Source: Candidatus Eiseniibacteriota bacterium
Lineage (GTDB): Bacteria; Orphanbacterota; Orphanbacteria; Orphanbacterales; Orphanbacteraceae
Assembly: GCA_024276995.1 (NCBI GenBank)
Contig: JAJRWB010000030.1
Location: 1-5,054 of the forward strand
DNA length: 5,054 nt
Direction: 5' to 3'
In this document: positions 1-5,054 of the stretch, in pieces
How positions within the stretch are numbered: the first letter of the stretch is position 1
How the letters are laid out: each line of letters opens with the position of its first letter
Notes under the pieces: generated by a model
The model's input: only the letters and a program-made list of their open reading frames with translations
The model's database searches: none
Told to the model about the DNA's origin: nothing
Position numbers and translations under genes: made by a program

Positions 1-3000
1 AGGTGATCTCCTCGGGCATGCTGCACTCGACACCGCCCAGTACGGCCCCCGCGCCGCCCGCCTCGCCCTTGAGCAGATCGGCGGCGTCGGCCAACAGTCG
101 TCGGGCCCTACTCTCGCCGGGAAGACCCAGCAGACGCAGTCTGTCGGGCAACGCTCCGAGTTTCTCCAGGAGATCGGGCACGTTCCGCCTCACCGAGCGG
201 CTGATGTGGTCTTCAAGTGGCAGGACCTCGTCGCCGAAAAGGGTCTCCAGCCGCCGTGCGGCTCTGTCCAAGGCCTCGGGCGGGAGTTTCGCGTCCCGCG
301 GGGAGATGCCGATCCGATTGAAAGCGACGGTGTTCTTCACCCCCTCGACAGCCTTGGGTCCGGCGGTGCGGACCACTCCCTCCGCGCCGGGTACATGGAA
401 TTCAATTTCACCTGCCCGCAGGAGAGCGGCGAAAAGGTACCTCACCGTATCCTTCGTCCATCCGTAGGGAGGAGCGGAGAAAACATCCTGAAGATAGGAA
501 CCTTGGAGCCTTCCGGAACCGGACTCGGCCGACTTCACCTGGAAGACCCGTAACACCTCGGCCAGTACCGGCGTTGAGGTGTCGATCCGCGGCGCGCCCC
601 GGCTCTTGCTGACGAGCCCGAGAGGATCGAGGTCTTTGGTGATGCGGTCCATCCGCTCAACGCTCAGGAATTTCGCGGCGGCGTCCGTCGAAGGACGGAT
701 CGGAGCCAAATGAAAATGTGGGAAGACCTCCTTGACGGCTGATGAAAGGATGTTGCGCACGGCGGCGTCCAGCGTCTCCCCGGCCTCACGGACCGGAGTC
801 GGCTTGCCGCGGAAGATAAAGACGCCGTCCAACATCGCTTTTTCCATTGCGGCGGCGGCGCGTTCGCGGCTCCGCTCGGCCGACCGCCTTTCAGCGCGTA
901 GGTATTGGGCGACGACATGATCGGCGCTGCGTTCGTCGACGTCGCCCAGCACTTTCTCGGATTTCACGATTTCCGGCAGCAGCTCTTCCACCGTTTCCTC
1001 GTTTCGGACGAGAAGCAGCACCGTATTCTTGAGCTCGACTTGTGTGTTGGTGGATACGAGGGATTCTTTGCGTCTGTCGTCCCACAAGGCGGGTTCCACG
1101 AATTCCAGCCGGAGTTCCACGTCCTCGGAACCGCCGACGACGGACGTTCGTCCCAGTTTCACGGCGGCCCTGACATCCTTGATGTTCTCAAGCCTGGCCG
1201 CGGGCTGCACGCGGAACATGGGGTGATCCGCCGTTCCCTGCTTGAGAACGTCGATCCTGGCCCGTGCGCATTCGCCCGACGTCGGGGCGTAGCTGTTCCG
1301 TTTGTCACGGATCGGTTTGACCGCGTCACTCAGGAATACATAACCGCCCGCCTGCGGGTCCTCGATGAGGCCGCATTCTTTCTCGGTGGTCAGTTTCCGA
1401 AGGGCTTCCCGTACCTGATCGAGCAATGCGGGCGACCCGACGTTCCTGTAAAGCAGTGCGGCGATGTTCTCGGCGGTGCGCGGGAAGGTCTCCACGGGCT
1501 GCAATGCGGCGACGGCCTTGGCGACGCGTACCTCCAGGGAGTCGGCACCGAATATCTTCATAGTCTTGTCCACGCCGCCAATAACGTGAGGCAGAACCTT
1601 GGCGATGTCCGCTCTGAGAGTGTCGTAGAAGTCGTCCACGCAGGCCAGAGCACCGATCTCCCGGTCGGCGAGCTTGACCGCGTCCGCGCCGAGCACACGG
1701 CTCTTGTCCACCAGGACGTCCTGAATAACCCGGATCGCCGAACGCAGACCGATGCCGCCGGTGGATCGGGCCAGCGTTCGGATCAGTTCCAGCAGCAGAT
1801 CGAAGTGTTGGGGCAGGAACGGGTAAAGACGGACGAACGTTTCGGCGTCGGGGTCCCCTTTGAAGAGCGCCGTGCCGGTCAGGCGTGTATGCGTGACCGT
1901 GGATTGACCGTGCTCCTTGTACAGGGCCGCCAACCGTTTGCGGCCGTCTTCCGCTTTGTCAAGCAACCGGCGGTGAGTGATCTCCCGGATGTCGCTCGCG
2001 TCCAAGTGGATGGAAATAGGGAAGCGGTCACGCAGTTTGTTCAACTCCGCGGAGTTGTGCGCGGCCTTTTCGACAATCTCGCTCAGGGTCTGTTGACCGG
2101 TGGCGGCGATCCAGACTTTGCCCTTGCCGAGTTCTTTCAGATTCCTCGCCAGACCGTCCAGATTGAGGATCAACTCGCCGCGGGGCGCGACGTATTGCCC
2201 CGCCTCGTCGACCAGCAGGAGGATATTCTCATGGCCGGTCTTGCGGCGGCAGAGTTCAATGATCTCTCCCGCCAAGTCGCGGACGTCGCGCGCTTCTTCG
2301 AAACGCAGGCCGCGGAAACTCTCGGGCGTCGGGAAATCTTCCGGCAGGACTTCCGGCACGATTTGTGCCGCACGGGCCACCCCGATCAAGGGGTCGTTGT
2401 GGATTTCATCCCACTCGCCTTTGTACCGTTCGCGGTACCTTTCCTTGAATTCATCATACTTCCCCCTGCGGTCCAAGGTGAATTCGAGCTGCGCGGTTTT
2501 CTTTTCCTTGGAGAAACCCGCCCACTGCAGCACTTTCCAATAGAGCACTGTGGAAACGGGGGCGGCCGTGCTTTCCGCGAGTTGTTCTGCCCCGAGGTCG
2601 AGCAGCACCACCGCCGTGGGGTGTTTCTTGGAGACGGTGCGGAGAGCGGCGGGTATTTCATTCCGGGGGAACCGGTCACACAGGAGGTCGAGGAAAGGCT
2701 TTCCGTGAACCGTCCTCGCCGGGTCGAGCGCGGCACCGAGGTACTTGGTGAAAGAGCTTTTGCCGCTGCCGTAGAAGCCGGACACCCATATGCCGACCTC
2801 GGTCACTTGCCCGCCCCTGACGCCTTCGCCGAATACATCCAGGAACTTCCGGAAGCAGGACTCGATATTATCCGTGACCTCGTATTCGGACACTTCACGC
2901 GACAGGCGGTCTTCCTCCTGCGCGTAGTAATCGATGACTTTCTCGATGGTCCGGTCGATGGGCCGCCGGGGCGAGAACAGTTGTCGAATTGTTTCGCTCA

Positions 3001-3001
3001 T
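1..3001 (-). CDS. brxC: BrxC/PglY, BREX P-loop ATPase (C-terminus outside window)
   Basis: Exactly 1000 codons plus one base are in the window, all open; the end lies left of position 1. Family members usually have about 1100-1250 residues, so perhaps 100-250 are missing. BrxC is the large AAA+-like ATPase of BREX, essential in tested systems; whether it moves DNA or senses and signals is not settled. Seen: Walker A GFYGSGKS at residues 75-82 (DNA 2779-2756; Lys81), Walker B ILLLVDE at 260-266 running into AGQY, a sensor-1-like strand VWIAATGQQ at 296-304, and a possible arginine finger in KLRDRFP at 322-328. A conserved LARSTGGIGLRSAIRVIQD lies at 410-428. A charged helix likely to form a coiled coil spans about 698-725. 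A winged-helix-like stretch with PYGWTKDTVRYLF lies at 845-857. The start at 3001 has GGGAGG 6 bases upstream and overlaps the brxB stop by one base. I see no frameshift, and the ATPase residues look intact. Confidence 0.94.
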   Translation of the reverse strand, partial: MSETIRQLFSPRRPIDRTIEKVIDYYAQEEDRLSREVSEYEVTDNIESCFRKFLDVFGEGVRGGQVTEVGIWVSGFYGSGKSSFTKYLGAALDPARTVHGKPFLDLLCDRFPRNEIPAALRTVSKKHPTAVVLLDLGAEQLAESTAAPVSTVLYWKVLQWAGFSKEKKTAQLEFTLDRRGKYDEFKERYRERYKGEWDEIHNDPLIGVARAAQIVPEVLPEDFPTPESFRGLRFEEARDVRDLAGEIIELCRRKTGHENILLLVDEAGQYVAPRGELILNLDGLARNLKELGKGKVWIAATGQQTLSEIVEKAAHNSAELNKLRDRFPISIHLDASDIREITHRRLLDKAEDGRKRLAALYKEHGQSTVTHTRLTGTALFKGDPDAETFVRLYPFLPQHFDLLLELIRTLARSTGGIGLRSAIRVIQDVLVDKSRVLGADAVKLADREIGALACVDDFYDTLRADIAKVLPHVIGGVDKTMKIFGADSLEVRVAKAVAALQPVETFPRTAENIAALLYRNVGSPALLDQVREALRKLTTEKECGLIEDPQAGGYVFLSDAVKPIRDKRNSYAPTSGECARARIDVLKQGTADHPMFRVQPAARLENIKDVRAAVKLGRTSVVGGSEDVELRLEFVEPALWDDRRKESLVSTNTQVELKNTVLLLVRNEETVEELLPEIVKSEKVLGDVDERSADHVVAQYLRAERRSAERSRERAAAAMEKAMLDGVFIFRGKPTPVREAGETLDAAVRNILSSAVKEVFPHFHLAPIRPSTDAAAKFLSVERMDRITKDLDPLGLVSKSRGAPRIDTSTPVLAEVLRVFQVKSAESGSGRLQGSYLQDVFSAPPYGWTKDTVRYLFAALLRAGEIEFHVPGAEGVVRTAGPKAVEGVKNTVAFNRIGISPRDAKLPPEALDRAARRLETLFGDEVLPLEDHISRSVRRNVPDLLEKLGALPDRLRLLGLPGESRARRLLADAADLLKGEAGGAGAVLGGVECSMPEEIT

Positions 3002-3567
3002 CACAGACCTCCCAGCAGGGTCGACCGGTAGTTGCCGTCGACCGGGTAAAAACTAAGAAAATGCAATCCGTATTGGCCGGAACGCCTGCCCGGGTAGAAA
3101 ATCACCGTCGGCGTCTTCACCTTGTCATGAAGCCTGCTCTCAATGGTTCGGGTGCGGAAATAGGGGTGGAGCAGTTCAGCCTCGGTGAGCAGGATTACCG
3201 TCTTTTCAGGAGTTGATTCGACCACTTGGGCCACCCGGTCGACGAAAGCGTCTCCCTGACGGAGGACATCCCGCACGGCCTCGTTAATCTGGTCCGCATC
3301 GGCCTCCTCCTCCAGTTCGAGCCAAATGTCCCATCTACCCGATTCGTCTACGATGTTCCAAAGGAGATCGGCCAGGGAAACGCGGCGCACCTCGAAGTCA
3401 GCCTCACGAATCTTGGCAGTCCAACGCGGCAACCGCTTCTTGAGATCAAGCATCAGCTCCGGCGGATAAGCGAAATAGAATACAGGGTCGCTCTTAGCCG
3501 GGTTGAGCGCGTCCGGGTCGCGAATTTTCTCTATCAGCTCATTGAATGCATTATCGAGCGAGTACAT
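3001..3567 (-). CDS. brxB: BrxB, DUF1788 family BREX protein
   Basis: A 188-residue BrxB (DUF1788), a core BREX component of unknown biochemical activity, thought to act with the other Brx proteins in the cytoplasm. Family marks seen: the N-terminal FYFAYPPELMLDLKKRLP at 30-47 after a short leading helix, the motif LLHPYFRTRTIESRL at 132-146, and the C-terminal signature TPTVIFYPGRRSGQ at 152-165 followed by LHFLSF and the ending DGNYRS at 177-182. The length is normal for the family. A very acidic helix lies at 79-100 (WDIWLELEEEADADQINEAV). The start at 3567 has GAGGAG 7 bases upstream and lies 17 bases inside the end of brxA. Its TGA stop shares one base with the brxC ATG (TGATG). The reading frame is intact. 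Confidence 0.92.
   Translation of the reverse strand: MYSLDNAFNELIEKIRDPDALNPAKSDPVFYFAYPPELMLDLKKRLPRWTAKIREADFEVRRVSLADLLWNIVDESGRWDIWLELEEEADADQINEAVRDVLRQGDAFVDRVAQVVESTPEKTVILLTEAELLHPYFRTRTIESRLHDKVKTPTVIFYPGRRSGQYGLHFLSFYPVDGNYRSTLLGGL
3008..3013 (-). promoter_or_regulatory. Ribosome binding site of brxC, inside brxB
   Basis: GGGAGG lies 6 bases before the brxC ATG at 3001, in the codons for the C-terminal LLGGL of BrxB. Together with the TGATG stop-start junction, it suggests that ribosomes finishing brxB reinitiate on brxC. Confidence 0.75.
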
Positions 3568-4357
3568 CGATCATCTCCTCGATTGAATTTACGGTCCATG
3601 TGAAGTGAACGACCGAGCCCGCACGCTGAACGATCACACCCCGATGTTCGCCTAGTCCGTCCAGCTTCTCGAGAGCCTCCGAAGGGGCCAGTCCGAAAAG
3701 TCCCCAATCGGGATGGGCGCAGAGCGATGAGTCCGTAACGCCTGATTCGTTAAGCTCTTTCGCAAGTACGGCCGCACCTTCGTCTGACATGCGGTAATCG
3801 ACGATTTCCCTGCGGCCGCGGGTGACCTCACGAAGAAACCCGACGTCGCGTAACAGCCCGAGGACACAGCGGGCGATACGTACCGATACGCTTTCCGACC
3901 ATTGGTTGTCCAACCGCCCGTCGTAATGAGCTTCGGAAAGGAATGAGAGCATGGGGTCGGTGTCCAATACGTTTCGTCCCCGTCTTACGGCGGGCCAGTA
4001 CTCACGGACCGTGAAGTCGTATACAAGGGGGTCCCGTCGCGCCGTAAAGACGAACAGCAGTTCGGTGAAAACACGCCCGGGCAACCCGGAGGAAAGAACC
4101 CGCTGAAGGATGCGCGCCGGTTTGTCTGTCGGCCTCAGGTATCGATGCGCGAAGACCCGCCTCACTATGTCGCGGGTTCTGTAGGCGGTCGCGTTTCCGA
4201 GCAGTCCTTCGTCCTGGACCCGGCGCGTGAACTCGTCAAGAGATTCACCGGGAATCCAATGCTCAAGAAGACGTCTCGTCTCCTCGATCATCCCGGCCCC
4301 CTTGCTTATGGCCGTCGTGTATTGGCGTTGCATATCCTTGTTCATTGTCACAGTCAT
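3551..4357 (-). CDS. brxA: BrxA, DUF1819 family BREX protein
   Basis: A 268-residue BrxA (DUF1819). In other BREX systems BrxA is a small DNA-binding protein with winged-helix-like parts; its exact part in defence is unsettled. Family features seen: the N-terminal SKGAGMIEETRRLL at 18-31, the segment at 98-123 (TELLFVFTARRDPLVYDF followed by EYWP), and a winged-helix-like stretch at 157-200 (ARCVLGLLRDVGFLRE, then YRMSDEGAAVL). The last ~55 residues (HPDWGLFGL at 215-223, VIVQRAGSVVHFTW at 241-254, then SIEEMID) extend beyond the roughly 200-residue E. coli form; I recall this ending in longer DUF1819 members. The start at 4357 overlaps the brxE stop in an ATGA but lacks a strong ribosome binding site, so translation probably relies on coupling. 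In-frame ATGs at 4345 (residue 5) and 4333 (residue 9) are alternatives. The 3' end carries the brxB ribosome binding site and start. Confidence 0.9.
   Translation of the reverse strand: MTVTMNKDMQRQYTTAISKGAGMIEETRRLLEHWIPGESLDEFTRRVQDEGLLGNATAYRTRDIVRRVFAHRYLRPTDKPARILQRVLSSGLPGRVFTELLFVFTARRDPLVYDFTVREYWPAVRRGRNVLDTDPMLSFLSEAHYDGRLDNQWSESVSVRIARCVLGLLRDVGFLREVTRGRREIVDYRMSDEGAAVLAKELNESGVTDSSLCAHPDWGLFGLAPSEALEKLDGLGEHRGVIVQRAGSVVHFTWTVNSIEEMIDVLAR
3575..3580 (-). promoter_or_regulatory. Ribosome binding site of brxB, inside brxA
   Basis: GAGGAG lies 7 bases before the brxB ATG at 3567 and within the last codons of brxA. Another ATG at 3574-3572 sits directly after it, but it is out of frame with brxB and too close to be used. 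This supports the 17-base overlap of the two genes as real. Confidence 0.75.
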
Positions 4358-4908
4358 CCGCCGATCCCGTTTTGATCCGCGGCGAAATACGGAAAAGTAG
4401 GTTTTCCCAGCTTAAACGCCTGGCGGTAGACCGCGGCGGCCCTGCCCAAAGCCTCAACCGTCGTTGCATCCGAATCGGTGCCGATCCTTCTCGGGCCGGC
4501 GGCATCGTTCTTGAGTTCCCCACCGTCGCAAAACGGCGTAAGCATCTCCATCAGCTTGTCCTGTTGACCGAGGCACAGACGGATACTTTCGATGAAATCC
4601 TCATCAGTCGACGGCGGGATTGAGTACACATCCACTTCCAATGATTCAGGAAGCCTGAAAAGGTGATAGACGCCGACGCGGCCGACAGCACGGTCGTGAA
4701 TCTCGCAGGCTGCTTTTCCTGCGGCGTGGACAGCGGCACGGAACGAGGATCGCGGGTAAAGTCTTTCAAGGAAACGCAATCCCGTTTCATTCATGAAGTC
4801 GGTTTTCCACCAAGCCGGAAGCGAGGACTCACCAAGCGCCAGGACCAAGGCTCGGAGGCGGCTCGCGAGAAGAGCCGGCGAAATCTGCATTCCTTTGTCC
4901 TTACTCAT
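4354..4908 (-). CDS. brxE: BrxE family BREX protein
   Basis: A 184-residue protein that I recognise as the BrxE family, found in type 6 BREX operons. Recognition rests on the conserved block at residues 33-53 (AWWKTDFMNETGLRFLERLYP) and the block at 57-91, including HAAGKAACEIHDRAVGRVGV and YHLFRLPESLE. The length is as expected for the family. It has no signal peptide, membrane segment or known catalytic motif, so it is probably a soluble cytoplasmic protein. Its biochemical role is unknown. The start at 4908 is chosen because GGAGGG lies 9 bases upstream and because it gives an ATGA overlap with the regulator's stop; a second in-frame ATG at residue 7 is less well placed. The C-terminus overlaps the brxA start by 4 bases (ATGA). 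Codon use is like that of its neighbours. Confidence 0.85.
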   Translation of the reverse strand: MSKDKGMQISPALLASRLRALVLALGESSLPAWWKTDFMNETGLRFLERLYPRSSFRAAVHAAGKAACEIHDRAVGRVGVYHLFRLPESLEVDVYSIPPSTDEDFIESIRLCLGQQDKLMEMLTPFCDGGELKNDAAGPRRIGTDSDATTVEALGRAAAVYRQAFKLGKPTFPYFAADQNGIGG

Positions 4909-5054
4909 TTGCGTTCACCCTCCGGAAGGGTCAATTTGCCCTGGTTGGTCATCTTTTTGCAGAAGGCGACAAGCTGAGCTTTGGCGAGTTTCGAGGGCTT
5001 GGATTGCCCGTTTTCCCACCGATTCACGGTCGCGTAGCTGACACCCAACTGCCG
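4905..5054 (-). CDS. XRE-family helix-turn-helix regulator, C-terminal part (start outside window)
   Basis: The frame is open from the right edge and codes 49 residues before a TGA at 4907-4905. The visible N-terminal stretch is a classic XRE/Cro-C1 (HTH_3) signature: the recognition helix VSYATVNRWE at visible residues 5-14, then NGQSKPS, then a hydrophobic helix (KLAKAQLVAFCKKM). A short polar tail ends in EGERK. Helices 1 and 2 of the domain, and anything before them, lie outside the window. The combination VSYATVNRWENG is common in small stand-alone regulators, but it also occurs as a domain of larger proteins, so total length cannot be judged. The stop overlaps the brxE start in an ATGA, so the gene is translationally coupled to the BREX genes and is probably an operon autoregulator. 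It is not a visible match to BrxR, the WYL-domain regulator of other BREX loci. The ORF is too short and edge-truncated to stand out without translating the frame by hand. Confidence 0.85.
   Translation of the reverse strand, partial: RQLGVSYATVNRWENGQSKPSKLAKAQLVAFCKKMTNQGKLTLPEGERK
4918..4923 (-). promoter_or_regulatory. Ribosome binding site of brxE
   Basis: GGAGGG (continuing as GGAGGGTGA) lies 9 bases before the ATG at 4908, inside the last codons of the regulator gene. It decides for this start over the in-frame ATG six codons later. Confidence 0.75.

Follow-up and report, generated by a model that had tools for sequence, protein, structure and literature searches.

Which BREX type does an operon that begins with brxE belong to? 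According to a 2026 survey that recounts the founding study, BrxE occurs only in type 6 (PMC12839542), and a preliminary description had assigned the locus studied here to that type. The window that we analyzed is the complete contig C11 (G000:C11) of 5,054 bases, from a draft genome of 3.76 Mb in 81 contigs. Its minus strand carries brxE, brxA, brxB, and brxC (Table 1); brxC is open at the contig end, and all are otherwise intact. The longest open frame in the window spans 1017 codons, compared with a maximum of 283 in 100 shuffled sequences, and the dN/dS values against relatives reveal purifying selection for all four genes. BrxC retains both ATPase motifs intact, Walker A as GFYGSGKS and Walker B as LLLVDE. 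The initial recognition of BrxA, BrxB, and BrxC as BREX core proteins with a BrxE homolog in front is borne out by curated as well as defense-specific profiles, and a regulator gene fragment in front of brxE can be added to that first gene list. The tail of this HTH_3 regulator shows 78 to 90% identity to its counterparts at the same position in five relatives (L006–L010), and an ATGA overlap joins the end of its gene to the start of brxE. Likewise, brxE and brxA overlap by 4 nt (ATGA), brxA and brxB by 17 nt, and brxB and brxC by 4 nt.

Table 1 Genes of the 5,054-base window and the profile matches of their products
Feature	Coordinates	Strand	Extent	Profile match
XRE/HTH_3-type regulator gene, 3' end	4905..5054	-	last 49 codons	Pfam HTH_3 23.7 bits (cut-off 23)
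brxE	4354..4908	-	184 aa	BrxE family, not BREX-6 equivalog; NCBIfam BrxE_fam NF033447 134.9 bits
brxA	3551..4357	-	268 aa	Pfam BrxA PF08849 69.6 bits; PADLOC BrxA 370.6 bits
brxB	3001..3567	-	188 aa	Pfam BrxB PF08747 66.3 bits; PADLOC BrxB 152.4 bits
brxC	2..3004	-	first 1001 of about 1225 aa	PADLOC BrxC 1540.4 bits; NCBIfam BREX_BrxC 740.7 bits (cut-off 400)

The genes pglX and pglZ, which had been expected outside the window, were both found by PglZ and PglX searches of the genome on contig C61 (4,816 bases). This contig encodes the C-terminal 264 aa of PglX, followed by an 842-aa PglZ and the N-terminal 495 aa of BrxL. The two proteins that define BREX membership, a BrxC/PglY ATPase and PglZ, are thus present, BrxC in the window and PglZ on C61. 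The BrxL sequence, which ends at residue 495, scores 703.7 bits on TIGR02653 (cut-off 628), PglZ scores 49.5 bits on its Pfam profile (cut-off 25), and the PglX C terminus, at 264 aa only, scores 146 bits on its best model, that of BREX-1. The PglX search recovered only residues 1202 to 1465; the assembly as searched lacks the C-terminal end of BrxC (about 220 aa) and about 1200 aa of PglX. Because the same gene order is found in every complete relative, and because separate trees of BrxC and PglZ place C11 and C61, respectively, in the same clade, we infer that C11 is the 5' part and C61 the 3' part of one operon. The BrxC of C11 and the PglZ of C61 also share the same nearest relatives. A second BREX operon was considered as the source of the PglZ matches; the only other match in the genome, on C69, reads as a PorX-like receiver-plus-PglZ protein and not as a part of BREX.

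That both contigs end inside genes could also indicate a decaying remnant, in which the operon was broken by mutation and not by assembly, and clear decay is present in the relatives L011, L044, and L049. However, every gene in the window and on C61 stays open with Walker motifs intact, the dN/dS values of the window genes are low, and both breaks coincide with contig ends, which makes such a remnant very improbable.

With the operon read across both contigs, its type can be judged from gene content. The description as a BREX operon fragment with brxE before brxA stands, whereas the type 6 assignment does not, given brxL on C61, the failure to find BrxD, and the gene content of the relatives. 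Seven intact loci that are readable to the operon end (L008/L024, L009/L026, L014/L025, L041, L042, L047, and L048) all have the order brxE-brxA-brxB-brxC-pglX-pglZ-brxL without BrxD or BrxHI. The preliminary description had named neighbors with BrxL and without BrxD/BrxHI as a sign of another BREX type, and this is the gene content seen on C61 and in the intact relatives. Neither of the two contigs nor any relative locus searched gave a match to BrxD or BrxHI. A search of the source genome with PF10923 (BrxC_BrxD) was also empty, although this profile has limited reach; because it failed to detect the BrxC of the window as well, the absence of BrxD rests more on gene order.

The profile scores agree with this picture. 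The window BrxE passes the broad BrxE family model NF033447 (cut-off 40) and fails the BREX-6 model NF033448 with 25.5 bits (cut-off 80), on which the type 6 BrxE of Aulosira scores 240. Similarly, PglX of L008, the nearest complete relative, exceeds the BREX-1 cut-off (728 bits against 500) and stays below that of BREX-6 (421 bits against 900). The PglZ of C61 reaches none of the subtype model cut-offs: it scores best on the BREX-6 PglZ model with 139.9 bits (cut-off 400), and it obtains 112.8 bits (cut-off 270) and 85.6 bits (cut-off 400) on the NCBIfam models for type A and type B. A true type 6 operon, continuing as pglX-pglZ-brxD-brxHI, would account for a BrxE family member in front of brxA, and the remaining traces of a type 6 link may be the branching of BrxC described below and the preference of PglZ for the BREX-6 model. 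Nevertheless, pglZ is followed by brxL on C61 as it is in every intact relative. The type 6 reading, to which we assign next to no probability, could survive only if C61 were part of a second BREX operon. The order brxA-brxB-brxC-pglX-pglZ-brxL of type 1 extends across C11 and C61, given the inferred join, and is complete in the relatives. The window is thus very probably one end of a type-1-like BREX operon with the layout (HTH regulator)-brxE-brxA-brxB-brxC-pglX-pglZ-brxL, in which BrxE would be a stable extra subunit. We call the system type-1-like and not plain type 1 because its PglZ clade lies outside the existing models.

Phylogenetic trees, which were quick searches without bootstrap and contained some long branches, place these loci together. 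A BrxC tree of 44 rows gathers the 18 rows with BrxE outside type 6 in a single clade (SH-aLRT 100), sets type 6 apart as another (100), and unites four BrxE-less loci with related BrxC in a third (100). While this tree leaves the joining of the three clades unsettled, a smaller set unites the BrxE-plus-BrxL group with type 6 (SH-aLRT 99), nearer than to classical type 1. The PglZ tree likewise groups the BrxE-plus-BrxL loci into a single clade (10 rows, 100). Judged from these sequences, the loci with both BrxE and BrxL represent a recurring branch of their own, separate from both BrxE-less type 1 and type 6. BrxE itself is rare: 4 of 395 Desulfobacterota genomes and 4 of 400 Chloroflexota genomes have a BrxE over the cut-off, and BREX-6 BrxE exceeded its cut-off in none of 398 Pseudomonadota genomes. 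No BrxE-like gene was found before brxA in the BrxE-less neighbor clade (L118–L120); in L118, a 422-aa frame that looks SIR2-like by eye lies directly before brxA (reverse complement coordinates 840–2105).

BrxE is the fastest-changing of the four window proteins against most relatives, with about 57 to 61% identity to the nearest ones, whereas BrxA and BrxC retain 79 to 90%. Its dN/dS of about 0.14 to 0.21 against relatives, a rough value as dS is near saturation, indicates purifying selection, and the residues invariant across 15 to 16 sequences include H71-D72 and H82-L-F-R-L86. The AlphaFold2 model of BrxE is confident and mainly helical (pLDDT 88.4). A Foldseek search of this model against the PDB and viral models returned nothing with E under 0.001, VIA-align gave no convincing match among solved structures (best Z 2.9), and the BrxE sequence had no match in the PDB. 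With no convincing structural match, an attempt to read the function of BrxE from its fold was set aside, although the lack of a match is no proof of a new fold. No enzyme motif was recognized in BrxE.

Since the locus has the core genes and the terminal brxL of type 1, and since the 2026 survey treats types 5 and 6 as part of type 1 (PMC12839542), it could be regarded as an ordinary type 1 operon in which BrxE is a chance neighbor of no functional weight. However, all 18 rows of this BrxC clade have BrxE, a count biased upwards because the rows were mostly found via BrxE or the neighboring BrxA. By comparison, 22 Desulfobacterota genomes have BrxC over the cut-off, and none of the 18 BREX loci fetched from them, all outside the clade, carries BrxE. 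In addition, brxE always lies directly before brxA, overlapping or abutting it, and is under purifying selection as noted above. A chance association is therefore very improbable, and BrxE as a regular part of a type-1-like operon is the reading that we retain. We give an even chance to the further proposal that these loci are a separate BREX branch between types 1 and 6, with BrxE as a core subunit of a fold not seen before and with the type 6 layout as a relative that swapped brxL for brxD-brxHI, or the reverse.

BrxA relatives with 77 to 85% identity occur in nine genomes, whose labels name Synergistota, Anaerolinea, Omnitrophota, Ozemobacter, Aminicenantes, Desulfacinum, Syntrophobacteraceae, Verrucomicrobiaceae, and Rhodobacteraceae. 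The presence of such close relatives across many phyla indicates that the operon moves horizontally. More distant BrxE-bearing operons lie on plasmids and on five contigs filed as viral, and a search for BrxE in phage records found none.

The surroundings of the related operons vary. In the finished genome of Synergistota L-13, a tRNA-Ser, a tyrosine integrase, and a Toprim/AAA protein lie on the chromosome some kb beyond the BREX operon (L024, 3516–7895), probably representing an integrated element. A GGACT (gamma-glutamylcyclotransferase-like) gene precedes the HTH-brxE operon in L008 (8528–9106) and L006 (8528–9106), nearly identical in two distant hosts. Downstream of brxL, a UvrD helicase with a PD-(D/E)XK nuclease domain is encoded in L024 (9104–12022), L026 (15758–19009), and L025 (17053–19998) with 86 to 92% identity, preceded in L025 by a DNA cytosine methylase; this protein has no close copy in the source genome as assembled.

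Within the operon, pglX is split in L007 (15040–17082; 18719 on) and L047 (5561–12464) into a methyltransferase half of about 665 to 680 aa and a C-terminal half with genes inserted between them, an ATPase in L007 and a helicase-like gene plus DUF2290 in L047. In L010 (15034–17082), the N-terminal half stops at the same point, ahead of the contig end. Among L006–L014, brxB is mosaic: L006 and L007 share 99% identity in BrxA and 95 to 96% in BrxC but only 76% in BrxB, whereas L007 and L012 share 97% in BrxB and 54% in BrxE. This pattern suggests that single genes are exchanged inside the operon. A joint inheritance of BrxB alleles with the PglX specificity region was considered and dropped, as the rank correlation was weak (0.55, 21 non-independent pairs). 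As for the decayed relatives, L011 (11354–15950) has internal deletions in BrxC, PglZ, and BrxL of a BrxE-bearing BREX operon, L044 has a frameshifted brxE and a PglX N terminus fused to DprA, and L049 contains frameshifts throughout, possibly from sequencing error.

In type 1 BREX, PglX, BrxB, BrxC, and PglZ methylate a motif, and unmethylated phage is restricted by these proteins plus BrxL; the nuclease PglZ is bound to BrxB, BrxC binds BrxB-PglZ as well as DNA, BrxA lowers DNA binding by BrxC, and BrxL forms a DNA-binding ring that depends on ATP (PMC12205998, PMC13326643, PMC10164562). By analogy, an operon with the observed gene content, order, intactness, and clade membership most likely works in the same way. 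PglX, with BrxB, BrxC, and PglZ, would methylate a short non-palindromic motif in host DNA, and unmethylated phage DNA bearing the motif would trigger the BrxC-BrxB-PglZ complex, with PglZ as the nuclease, together with BrxL, an ATP-driven, ring-shaped motor that binds DNA; phage replication would thereby come to a halt. As the putative stable extra subunit of this branch, BrxE may serve as an assembly or gating factor at the BrxA/BrxC step. We propose tentatively, at somewhat less than even chances, that BrxE acts on or tunes this step, because its gene always lies directly before brxA, overlapping or abutting it, and tracks the same BrxC clade, and because the protein has no recognizable enzyme motif.

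The recurrence of BrxE in a BrxL-keeping clade with members from many phyla runs contrary to the view that it is confined to type 6, and a BREX subtype call from brxE alone is unsafe. The combination of BrxE and BrxL is already visible in public records, as the NCBI automatic annotation puts a "BrxE family protein" beside BREX-1 genes on the Thioflavicoccus and Hymenobacter plasmids; no paper describing it was found in the literature searched. Its recurrence in this clade allows BrxE to be studied in a type-1-like background, in which the other parts are well understood.

Comparing the system with known ones, BREX type 1 of Escherichia coli, Acinetobacter, and Vibrio plasmids (L064, L069, and L070) shares the core genes, their order, and brxL as the last gene, and the PglX of the nearest complete relative likewise exceeds the BREX-1 cut-off. 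However, brxE stands in front here, an XRE-type HTH gene takes the place of the WYL regulator gene of type 1, and BrxC and PglZ form separate clades, with PglZ scoring below the cut-offs for both type A and type B. BREX type 6 of Aulosira (L065), Pseudanabaena (L072), and Azospirillum (L066) shares brxE directly before brxA and possibly has the nearest BrxC clade. In contrast, these three plasmid loci contain BrxD and BrxHI and lack BrxL, and type 6 BrxE, PglX, and PglZ pass the BREX-6 models that the present system fails (PglX tested on the relative L008). The Thioflavicoccus mobilis plasmid pTHIMO01 and a Hymenobacter monticola plasmid have the same gene order and belong to the same BrxC and PglZ clade, although the identity is only about 28 to 55% protein by protein and the Thioflavicoccus locus differs in having pglX split in two with inserted genes.
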